Assembly: GCF_001808555.1 (NCBI RefSeq)
Contig: NZ_KV793784.1
Coordinates: forward strand, 1 to 35,853
Direction of reading: 5' to 3'
Length of the DNA: 35,853 nucleotides
Source of the DNA: Porphyromonas sp. HMSC065F10
Lineage (GTDB): Bacteria; Bacteroidota; Bacteroidia; Bacteroidales; Porphyromonadaceae
The notes below the pieces were generated by a model, which had not been told where the DNA came from, did not search any database, and saw only the letters and a program-made list of their open reading frames with translations. Each line of letters begins with the position of its first letter. Position 1 is the first letter of the stretch. A program made the position numbers and the translations under genes. Shown here piece by piece: positions 3,715-23,652 of the stretch.

Positions 3715-4484
3715 TGGCCAAGCGTCCACTTTTCTTAGTCAGTAATGATGACGGCGTCTTCGCCAAGGGGCTGACGGAGCTCTCCCTCTCGCTACGAGAT
3801 ATGGGCGATGTGATCGTCGTCGCACCTGATGAGCCGAGGAGTGGCTCCTCGAGTGCCATCACCACCCGCAACCCGATCACCTACAGCCTCGTCCGCTCGG
3901 AGCCGGGGCTGACGGTCTATAGCTGCACCGGCACGCCTGCCGACTGCGTCAAGCTGGCACTCAATGTCATCGTGACGGAGATGCCGGATATCGTCATTGC
4001 GGGGATCAACCACGGGGACAATAAGGGCATTGCGGTGAATTACTCCGGCACCCTTGGTGCTGCGATCGAGGGGTGCATCTTTGACATTCCCTCCCTCGCC
4101 ATCTCGCTTATCCATGGCAAGCAGGAGAGCGACTACCTCGCCTGCTGTCGCTATGCGCGTGCCATCTGCCGGCGGATCCTCAAGGAGGGGTTGCCTCGTG
4201 GGGTCTACCTCAATGTCAATGTGCCCAATATCCCTCGCGTCAGAGGGCTGAGGGTCTGCAGTCAGGCGGACGGGAGGTACCACAACGAATTCATCAAGCA
4301 GCGTAACCCTCAGGGGAAGGATGTCTACTGGCTGAGTGGTGACCTGGTGCTCAATGAGCCGGCCGAGAAAGGTTGGGACGTAGCTACCCTTGATCGAGGC
4401 TACGCCACGATGGTGCCGTGTAAGATCGACGTCACTGCCTATCAGTATGTACGCGACCTGCAGTCGTGGGAGGAGGATGACTGA
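3714..4484 (+). CDS. surE: 5'/3'-nucleotidase SurE
   Basis: SurE is a metal-dependent phosphatase acting on nucleoside 5'- and 3'-monophosphates, usually linked to stationary-phase survival. The 256-residue protein has the diagnostic N-terminal SNDDG with metal ligands Asp12 and Asp13. The PRSGSSSA loop carries the third ligand (Ser43), and GINHGDN carries Asn99. TGTPADCV and the NYSGTLGAAIEG helix complete the fold. It overlaps the preceding gene by one base and is followed after six bases by lpxB, so it is in one transcription unit with an envelope gene. Confidence 0.95.
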   Translation: MAKRPLFLVSNDDGVFAKGLTELSLSLRDMGDVIVVAPDEPRSGSSSAITTRNPITYSLVRSEPGLTVYSCTGTPADCVKLALNVIVTEMPDIVIAGINHGDNKGIAVNYSGTLGAAIEGCIFDIPSLAISLIHGKQESDYLACCRYARAICRRILKEGLPRGVYLNVNVPNIPRVRGLRVCSQADGRYHNEFIKQRNPQGKDVYWLSGDLVLNEPAEKGWDVATLDRGYATMVPCKIDVTAYQYVRDLQSWEEDD

Positions 4485-6588: not shown

Positions 6589-7458
6589 TCAGAAAAGGGG
6601 GTATAGGAATGCGTATAGCGTAAAGCCGGTTATAGACCCGAGTACGGATGTGAGAAATACAAGGCGTCGGGTATTTGTGCAGAGAAATGCGGTCACGCAC
6701 GAGATGCAGAAGAAGAGTGACAAGACGGGCGAGGGCATCTCTGCCGAGTAGTAGAGACAGTATAGGACGAAGAGGAACCAGCCCAGCCTGAGGTGGAGAT
6801 GGGTGACCCAACGGTATCTCGCGATGGCGTGCCTGCGGACTATCATAGTCTCTATAGTGGCAGCCGTCAGCAGCATCAGGAGGGATGATACTCGTAGCCA
6901 GTCGTCGGTACTACTCGGGAGACTTGGGTGAAGAAGAGATCCATAGGTGCGGTCAATAAATCCCAGCACACCCTCCGGTGTGGGAGGCGCAAGGAGGAGG
7001 ATCCCCACCCAGAGCACCATAAGCACCCCCAGAACCATGGCAGAGTAGTGACGCCAAGTCCCCAGCCCGATCTGCCTGAGCATAAAGCCAAAGATGAGGA
7101 GTGTCGGCAGCCATACCGGATCAATCAGAGAGAGAAGCCCGATGCCAAGCCCGATATTAAAACCGATGAATGGGGACTTGTGCTGAGCGATCGAGGTGAT
7201 GATGTACTCGCTGAGGAAGACCAGGATGATCGTTGCGATCACCGTCAGGGAGAGTGAGCGTGTCGCTATGCCTACCTGACTCGTCATCAGGAGCGCCATC
7301 ATTATCCACGAGGTCGTCTCGTGGATATGTGATCCGTAGCTGAGGATATTGTGCCTGTGGAGCAGGAATAGTAGGGCTGCGGAGAGTACGAGCGCAACTA
7401 TTGGCTCAGAGAGCACTTGCTCTCCGAGTGACGATAGCTTAGTCAGGTATTGCTCCAT
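6589..7458 (-). CDS. Polytopic inner-membrane protein, unknown function
   Basis: I do not recognise a function. The 289-residue protein is almost wholly hydrophobic, with eight or nine likely membrane segments (approximately 17-34, 50-66, 70-88, 100-130, 140-158, 190-207, 225-240, 243-262 and 266-286) and only short loops. It resembles the DUF6427-type membrane proteins annotated in Bacteroidota, but that assignment is from memory of overall shape and is unconfirmed. It lies between purD (23-base gap) and the GT2 gene (13-base gap) on the same strand. A partner role with the glycosyltransferase, such as lipid-linked sugar handling, is possible but only suggested by position. Confidence 0.75.
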   Translation of the reverse strand: MEQYLTKLSSLGEQVLSEPIVALVLSAALLFLLHRHNILSYGSHIHETTSWIMMALLMTSQVGIATRSLSLTVIATIILVFLSEYIITSIAQHKSPFIGFNIGLGIGLLSLIDPVWLPTLLIFGFMLRQIGLGTWRHYSAMVLGVLMVLWVGILLLAPPTPEGVLGFIDRTYGSLLHPSLPSSTDDWLRVSSLLMLLTAATIETMIVRRHAIARYRWVTHLHLRLGWFLFVLYCLYYSAEMPSPVLSLFFCISCVTAFLCTNTRRLVFLTSVLGSITGFTLYAFLYPLF

Positions 7459-23373: not shown

Positions 23374-23381
23374 CAAATGTA
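23374..23381 (-). promoter_or_regulatory. Promoter -7 box for rlmD-rsfS-ftsH
   Basis: On the minus strand TACATTTG, followed by C, matches TAnnTTTG exactly. Twenty bases further upstream stands TTCG (one mismatch from TTTG), inside the edge of the palindromic element at 23390-23513. The leader of about 60 bases holds a hairpin (AGACC 23340-23344 with GGTCT 23353-23357). Confidence 0.55.
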
Positions 23382-23389
23382 CGCAATTT

Positions 23390-23513
23390 GAGACTGTTGC
23401 ACGAAGGCGATCTGCTGCGTTGCTTTCGGAATTCGGTCTCGGTCACGTACGTGAGTACGCTCCTTTCGGTCTCATCCTCAGCGCCTTGCATCTCATCCTT
23501 CGTGCAAAGTCTC
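23390..23513. repeat. 124-bp intergenic palindromic element
   Basis: The ends are inverted repeats: GAGACTGTTGCACGAAGG at 23390-23407 faces CCTTCGTGCAAAGTCTC at 23497-23513 with a one-base indel. The interior has a perfect 12-base palindrome TCACGTACGTGA at 23442-23453. Internal text (CTGCTGCGTTGC, GGTCACGTACGTGAGTACGCTCC, GCGCCTTGCATCTC) has the look of a dispersed palindromic repeat. It holds no gene and is unrelated to the CTAATACCGG repeats. Confidence 0.8.
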
Positions 23514-23515
23514 AG

Positions 23516-23561
23516 CACATTTGAAACAAATGTGCGAGAATGCACTTCGTGCAACATTCTC
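23516..23561. repeat. Two small hairpins beside the palindromic element
   Basis: CACATTTG (23516-23523) pairs perfectly with CAAATGTG (23527-23534). GAGAAT (23536-23541) pairs with ATTCTC (23556-23561), enclosing GCAC-TTC-GTGC. CTTCGTGCAA in the second hairpin (23545-23554 with the preceding base A-shifted) repeats the arm of the large element, so these appear to belong to the same repeat block. No T-run follows on either strand. Confidence 0.55.
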
Positions 23562-23583
23562 ATTTTAATGCTTAGGTATGTGC

Positions 23584-23633
23584 AAAAAAAGCCCAGCCCG
23601 GCAGCATCGGAGTAAACCGGCTGCCGGGCTGGG
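23584..23633 (-). terminator. Rho-independent terminator of the ffh-to-secreted-protein unit
   Basis: A perfect 14-base-pair GC-rich stem forms between 23592-23605 (CCCAGCCCGGCAGC) and 23620-23633. Read on the minus strand it is followed within two bases by seven T residues (23590-23584). It lies 20 bases after the stop of the small secreted protein gene. Confidence 0.92.
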
Positions 23634-23652
23634 ATTAGTGGTGGGGCGAAGA

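Follow-up and report, generated by a model that had tools for sequence, protein, structure and literature searches.

A dispersed palindromic element upstream of rlmD in Porphyromonas is very probably an IS5-type MITE that carries an ERIC-like core

The stretch of DNA analysed here (the window, 35,853 nucleotides of contig NZ_KV793784.1 from Porphyromonas sp. HMSC065F10) holds a palindromic sequence beside the rRNA-methylase gene rlmD, which raises the questions of what this sequence is, what moved it there and whether its interior is related to palindromic repeats of other bacteria. A sequence-only reading had described a 124-bp palindromic block followed by two further hairpins at this place and had suspected a dispersed mobile repeat without being able to name it. 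The arms, the block and the internal palindrome TCACGTACGTGA were all recovered, and so were the two further hairpins; the block exists as described, but the unit that is repeated is longer, spanning 23390-23561 and measuring 172 bp (172-173 bp across the genome copies, with 34 sites aligned side by side). The features to which the text refers are the following.

23374..23381, minus strand: -7-like box of rlmD, TACATTTG, 8 bp outside the element and kept in the close relative G001, which has no copy there
23385..23389, no strand: left copy of the target duplication, AATTT, imperfect, with four of five bases identical to the right copy
23390..23561, plus strand: probable MITE, the whole mobile unit of 172 bp, with constant ends and 5-bp target duplications across copies
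23390..23406, plus strand: left terminal inverted repeat GAGACTGTTGCACGAAG, its first 13 nt being one end of an insertion sequence (IS) of genome G006
23390..23513, plus strand: hairpin 1, the 124-bp palindrome with the ERIC-like core, from arm search and folding
23415..23421, plus strand: motif CTGCGTT, left side of the lower internal loop
23442..23463, plus strand: core GTCA-CGTAC-GTGA-GTACG-CTCC, which as GGAG...TGAC on the minus strand can form tandem G.A pairs
23481..23487, plus strand: motif GCGCCTT, right side of the lower internal loop
23515..23535, plus strand: hairpin 2, GCACATTTG/CAAATGTGC, from sequence and folding
23536..23561, plus strand: hairpin 3, GAGAATG...CATTCTC, containing the right terminal repeat, from sequence and copy comparison
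23545..23561, minus strand: right terminal inverted repeat, GAGAATGTTGCACGAAG on that strand, its first 16 nt being the other end of the G006 IS
23562..23566, no strand: right copy of the target duplication, ATTTT, imperfect

Two sets of inverted arms organize the element, one of 18 nt and 94% complementarity joining its ends (23389-23406/23545-23562) and one of 11 nt and 100% complementarity (23397-23407/23497-23507), and the direct repeat CTTCGTGCAA occurs at 23498 and at 23545. Folded as RNA, the 172 bases reach -67.8 kcal/mol, where shuffled sequences average -45.3 (z -6.15), and the opposite strand has a z of -6.29. In a Porphyromonas levii copy the arms of hairpin 2 are GCCGATTTG/CAAATCGGC. 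A mechanical open reading frame of 132 aa spans the element, with no evidence of a gene. The element is not a product of chance, because the same bases recur across the genome.

This recurrence is extensive. The host is a 2.12-Mb draft genome in 103 contigs, and its search with the element region gave 38 matches, among which 24 extend over nearly the whole element at 94-100% identity. The element has roughly 25-30 copies in all, and the single copy that would have spoken against a mobile repeat is therefore not what the genome holds. A match was also found in 9 of the 12 genomes of the genus sample, in some to the core only, and genomes of this sample have 200-mers in common with named Porphyromonas somerae (G005), P. 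levii (G004) and Porphyromonadaceae bacterium FC4 (G011). The 124-bp block had no match in plasmids, and viral contigs gave 0 matches to an 18-base core pattern.

The flanks of these copies carry the mark of insertion. Among 28 sites having both ends, 15 are bordered by a perfect 5-bp target duplication and 25 by one of at least four identical bases of five, while 10,000 shuffled pairings gave means of 0.9 and 3.2, with maxima of 6 and 11. The width is specific, since perfect flank matches of 3, 4, 5 and 6 bases number 6, 3, 15 and 0, and the left-flank 5-mers are 81% A+T. Two of the 28 sites (L011:3399 and L013) have the same flanks. The six aligned sites left out of this test are an inner form without the outer end (L011:1002), a copy at a contig end (L030:1313), an 84-bp deletion form (L032), two copies at assembly gaps (L033 and L034) and a single degenerate arm (L038). 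Besides the 84-bp form, a short form of 125 bp occurs (L031), which recombination between the two CTTCGTGCAA repeats could explain. A 27-bp relic at L037:2001-2027, flanked by GATTA and AATTA, resembles hairpin 3 alone.

Empty counterparts were found in the close relative G001, from which 776,820 bases, about 39%, were taken as stretches and 30 sites compared. The copy L011:3399 sits inside another repeat, and G001 copies of that repeat lack exactly the element and retain a single target copy; the copies L031 and L027 likewise have empty counterparts, and the comparison at L028 was uninformative. At the rlmD site G001 is without the element, but its upstream neighbour gene differs; thus the empty site proposed as a check is documented for three other copies and not for the rlmD site itself. 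The many copies, the target duplications and these three empty counterparts bear out the suspicion of a dispersed mobile palindromic repeat. The repeat that serves as target at L011:3340-3620, and also seen at L196 and L211 in G001, is another dispersed one, containing GACCGATGCCTATGGAGCGAGCACCCTTCGGGTGCC.

What could have moved the element is indicated by its ends. A search for the end pattern in seven relatives yielded, among the matches listed, three pairs 1383 bp apart in genome G006, and these are three identical IS copies of 1383 bp with perfect 5-bp duplications (TCTCT, TAAAT and TTGAT). They encode a transposase of 374 aa (Pfam DDE_Tnp_1, 2.7e-33; NCBIfam IS5 family, 5.4e-73), and their two ends are unequal in the same way as those of the element, with which they have 13 and 16 bases in common. 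The transposase matches three full copies and one weak copy in G006, and in P. levii (G004) it has 29 partial matches, several of them at the first bases of contigs; the three partial copies that were read there have the same end as the G006 IS. In the part of PMC4596501 available to us, ISPg4 and MITE464 of P. gingivalis are listed with the end GAGACTGTTGCA, and the first 12 nt of our left terminal repeat are as listed there for ISPg4.

The host genome gave no match to the G006 transposase, and because of this the MITE is probably orphaned there. Four PF01609 matches were found in the host, one of them at a locus with long runs of N; no matching end pair accompanies any of the four, and single end matches with two mismatches occur at three. 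A loose scan of the fetched loci returned 32 long-spaced end pairs, of which, judged by sight alone, none was convincing.

Since the element has dispersed copies, 5-bp duplications, empty counterparts and an IS whose two unequal ends match its own, we propose that it is a MITE which depended for its movement on an IS5-family transposase resembling that of ISPg4 and acting in trans, with the interior palindrome as a passenger, and we hold this with high confidence. Several features of an IS5-family MITE are present, namely a size of 172 bp, terminal repeats, dispersed copies, a duplication of fixed length, an IS with the same ends and three empty sites. To judge from ends and duplications, the mover is most likely an ISPg4-like IS5 transposase, which would act on the element ends and duplicate 5 bp of mostly AT-rich target. 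The passenger would consist of an outer stem, a lower loop formed by CTGCGTT and GCGCCTT, an inner stem, an upper loop formed by TCA and CTC, and a short apical hairpin. A palindrome of the REP/RAYT type, moved by a Y1 transposase, would also be short and present in many copies, but the IS5-type ends and the 5-bp target duplications make such an origin scarcely credible.

At the site itself, the question is what the insertion did to rlmD, the identity of which is confirmed (TIGR00479, 8.3e-100). It had been suggested that the insertion may have supplied or altered the rlmD promoter. The -7-like box, judged by what we take to be the -7 consensus, lies outside the element and is kept in G001 without it, and a supply of the promoter by the element is not supported. 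Accordingly, it is very improbable that the promoter arose by the insertion and that the insertion persisted for this reason: the edge of the element would include the -33 area, but it offers a weak TTCG only, and a sigma-70 scan found no promoter, though its consensus does not cover Bacteroidota. Instead, the upstream promoter half may have given way to the inserted sequence, and the most likely effect of the insertion is that the -7-like box was parted from its old upstream half. On the other side, a minus-strand hairpin with a T-run after it, at 23589-23636, could well serve as terminator of the upstream gene; it is absent from the results of the consensus terminator scan, which does not allow a loop as long as its 14. 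Placed between this terminator and the -7 box, the element would probably be a near-neutral spacer, or else could act as a processing hairpin in read-through transcripts.

The element is not alone in carrying this type of core. A second MITE-like family of the host (L025, L027, L029 and L036), with the ends GAGACCTTTGCA and TGCAAAGGTCT, is similarly built of three hairpins, and its core stem, TGTGC/GCACA, shows compensated changes; at L029 a single target duplication encloses one of its copies together with an adjoining copy of the first family. The end GAGACCTTTGCA is the one listed for ISNme1 and is one base from that listed for ISPg1 in the available part of PMC4596501. A third family, with the stem CATAC/GTATG and quite different edges, occurs in G008, G007 and P. 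crevioricanis. The three Porphyromonas families differ in their ends, and therefore the core stays while the ends change.

The core also reaches beyond the genus, in keeping with the earlier impression that the internal text has the character of repeats seen in other bacteria. In a scan of 84,980 species genomes, the exact 22-mer GTCACGTACGTGAGTACGCTCC occurs in 71 stretches, from Porphyromonas and other Bacteroidota, from Bacillota (Shouchella and Sporosarcina isolates, a Clostridia and a Selenomonadales genome) and from genomes labelled Sandaracinaceae (Myxococcota) or Proteobacteria; the labels are those of the records, and several of these genomes (Sandaracinaceae, Bacteroidia, Bacteroidales and Clostridia) are metagenome-assembled. 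We estimate about 0.03 chance matches to the exact 22-mer in 257 Gb of random sequence. The stems flanking the core differ in these genomes from those of the Porphyromonas element. With at most one mismatch, the core pattern is present in 1 to 23 copies in each of 13 core-bearing genomes, and the reversed pattern in none; in the family of Sporosarcina it occurs in 13 of 61 genomes, the query genome included, and the reversed pattern in 0 of 61. Within samples of Bacteroidota the core is rare, with matches to a model in 2 of 296 genomes (under the stricter filters of Infernal, with 14 candidates scored per listed genome) and to the pattern in 1 of 345, the host genome being among them both times.

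Several of the Bacillota cores lie in rRNA or tRNA operons. A Shouchella locus (L070) has two different ERIC-like cores, at 4190-4211 and 7323-7344, in the 23S-5S and 16S-23S spacers of one operon and on the strand opposite to the rRNA, and Sporosarcina has pairs of cores 122-123 bp apart (L073:3411-3555, L119:804-947 and L287:201-345), those of L073 and L119 within tRNA clusters. Altogether six cores in three Bacillota loci (L070, L073 and L119) are inside rRNA or tRNA operons, and in all of them the GGAG strand is the transcribed one. The Bacillaceae-1 RNA (RF01690) adjoins two cores in the tRNA cluster of L073 as a separate structure without overlap, and no Rfam match at gathering score covers the cores of L070, L073, L094, L120, L122, L119, L286, L287 or L071. 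The element region itself, searched in Rfam by E-value threshold, gave six matches, all far below the gathering score. Two further Sporosarcina loci seem by eye to adjoin the start of 16S, in a fragment without Rfam match. As a separate observation, loci L274-L285, labelled Sandaracinaceae or Proteobacteria, hold a repeat with the variant core CTCACCTACNNNNGTAGGCTCC, its edges near CTAAACAG and CTGTTTAG in many copies, with at least 12 matches in G361 and at least 19 in G362.

Base pairing was also counted across the copies. In 108 distinct 82-mers, selected by a pattern and hence unbiased only where the pattern leaves a base free or does not reach, the second apical pair, left free by the pattern, is Watson-Crick in all 108 (G-C 102, A-T 4, T-A 2), and the pair that borders the core on its outer side is Watson-Crick in 97 (G-C 79, A-T 18) and G.T in 5; many of these 82-mers are near relatives and hence not independent. 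Slid by one, the latter pair would be Watson-Crick in 15 and G.T in 46. The next two positions outward are Watson-Crick in 40 and 9 of the 108 and often C.T and T.C or T.T. All but two of 16 folds show the apical stem complete. Many copies of G366 possess an outer stem of their own, and the tandem copies of L090 repeat theirs.

A folded RNA tolerates G.A and G.U pairs. On the GTCA strand of 79 copies, mismatches that stand singly in the stems beyond the core number C.T 91, A.C 73, G.T 45, C.C 19, T.T 16, A.G 9, G.G 9 and A.A 8, counts that come from related copies and may take in part of the lower loop. Because C.T and A.C of the GTCA strand become G.A and G.U on the other, the GGAG...TGAC strand is probably the one that folds, as RNA or as single-stranded DNA, though a pyrimidine-rich strand would yield part of this bias by its composition. 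The upper loop and the apical stem return in several phyla with other stems and other ends, the lower-loop motifs in part of the families only.

These data allow the reading that the element is primarily a structured or cis-regulatory RNA acting on neighbouring transcripts, its mobility being incidental. The stable fold, an upper loop that is constant while the stems change, the six Bacillota cores with the GGAG strand transcribed, and the predominance of C.T and A.C over A.G and G.T speak for it. We regard it as unlikely, however, as host copies have a mixed orientation to their neighbour genes (26 sites: 7 GGAG-sense, 5 GTCA-sense, 5 divergent, 5 convergent and 4 undecided), no Rfam family covers the cores tested, and the mismatch counts, drawn from related copies, may reflect a pyrimidine-rich strand. 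A MITE with a palindromic passenger remains the preferred reading of the element.

The passenger, in turn, recalls the ERIC repeats of enterobacteria, which are widely used for strain typing. The ERIC primers, as we presumed and then tested, enclose the same core as that of the element, and a 44-base ERIC centre is present in 5375 of 5426 E. coli genomes. A model (R1) was built from 22 seed sequences, none of them ERIC, of which 16 carry the exact 22-mer. It nevertheless recovered the ERIC between cusC and cusF at 25 bits, the next match having 7.4, and ranked ERIC first in 30 kb (E 2.2e-4, next 0.67); five of five E. coli ERIC loci were matched, standing for three places, and by our own scaling about 0.04 such recoveries would be expected per E. 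coli genome. The lower-loop motifs CTGCGTT and GCGCCTT, chosen after ERIC had been seen, each agree with ERIC at 6 of 7 bases, no more than four bases from where they are expected (joint p 9e-4). Six of seven bases on both sides are reached by only 6 of the 22 non-ERIC seeds, with Shouchella, Clostridia and Sandaracinaceae scoring 3-5, and a weight matrix of the whole flanks gave no signal against ERIC (p 0.22-0.24). In 71 core contexts, GTCA/CTCC was compared with eight rearranged tetramer pairs, which scored 0 each, a biased comparison in that 55 of the 71 carry the exact middle used for fetching many of the loci.

On these comparisons of sequence, kinship of the core with ERIC is plausible, though not proven. 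We tentatively propose that ERIC could be one branch of a module spanning several phyla, in which the upper loop and apical stem stay fixed, the lower loop is fixed in part and the other stems vary freely; the module would act as a folded GGAG strand, and different systems would add to it their own ends or settings (two IS5-type ends in Porphyromonas, TA in enterobacteria, placement in rRNA and tRNA operons in Bacillota). We place this proposal somewhat below even chances, and slightly lower than at first, given how poorly Shouchella, Clostridia and Sandaracinaceae match the lower-loop motifs. Convergence, by which repeats from separate phyla, or at the minimum ERIC on one side and all others on the other, would have no common origin, is a serious possibility, to which we give slightly less credence. 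It accords with the whole-flank comparison, with flank motifs that are absent or weak in 16 of the 22 seeds under the six-of-seven rule on both sides, and with stems that differ between groups and, in G366, between many copies of one genome. It has to account, however, for an exact 22-mer common to genomes labelled Bacteroidota, Bacillota and Myxococcota, where so few chance matches are estimated, for a reversed pattern without a match in all 13 and all 61 genomes, and for the recovery of ERIC by a model trained without it.

If the trans-phylum module is real, its persistence would be explained by selection on the folded form, and not by common ends. The data suggest that repeats defined by their stems can belong to a structural family spanning phyla, and the ERIC-like core in other phyla is the part of the finding worth following. 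If the same kind of core rides MITEs with an identifiable IS5 partner in Porphyromonas, experiments outside enterobacteria could address how it moves and what its folded form does. The literature covered, with few subscription papers and no bioRxiv, gave, among the matches listed, no description of ERIC-like repeats outside Enterobacteriaceae and Vibrionaceae, the groups in which a review, in its available part, places ERIC (PMC10969869); its text contains none of three 14-mers taken from the core and neither of two strings from the ERIC core, and the accessible parts of the literature found name no mover for ERIC. In Yersinia, ERIC is reported, in the portion of PMC2229807 at hand, to affect mRNA stability via RNase E.

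Compared with known systems, the element resembles ISPg4 of the IS5 family in the end GAGACTGTTGCA, and a relative of ISPg4 in G006 makes the same 5-bp duplications; this relative encodes a transposase, whereas the element has only its 13 and 16 outermost bases. Like the element, MITE464/MITEPgRS and BrickBuilt of P. gingivalis are transposase-free Porphyromonas repeats with IS5-type ends, and MITE464 is listed with GAGACTGTTGCA as its left end; compared by description, however, in the available part of PMC4596501, these carry tandem repeats of 41 and 23 nt, and the element has three hairpins and an ERIC-like core. By mechanism the element is an ordinary MITE, and as a family it is apparently new. 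ERIC (also IRU or RU-1) of enterobacteria is, like the element, a dispersed imperfect palindrome with a core of GTCA, a 5-bp stem, a 4-nt loop, the 5-bp stem again and CTCC, although the stems of the two differ. In the parts of PMC2229807 and PMC10969869 at our disposal ERIC is described as 127 bp long with TA termini and 7-bp terminal inverted repeats (TIRs), and the element, which has the central GTCA...CTCC palindrome and neither the TA termini nor the 7-bp TIR, bears instead IS5-type ends and 5-bp duplications.
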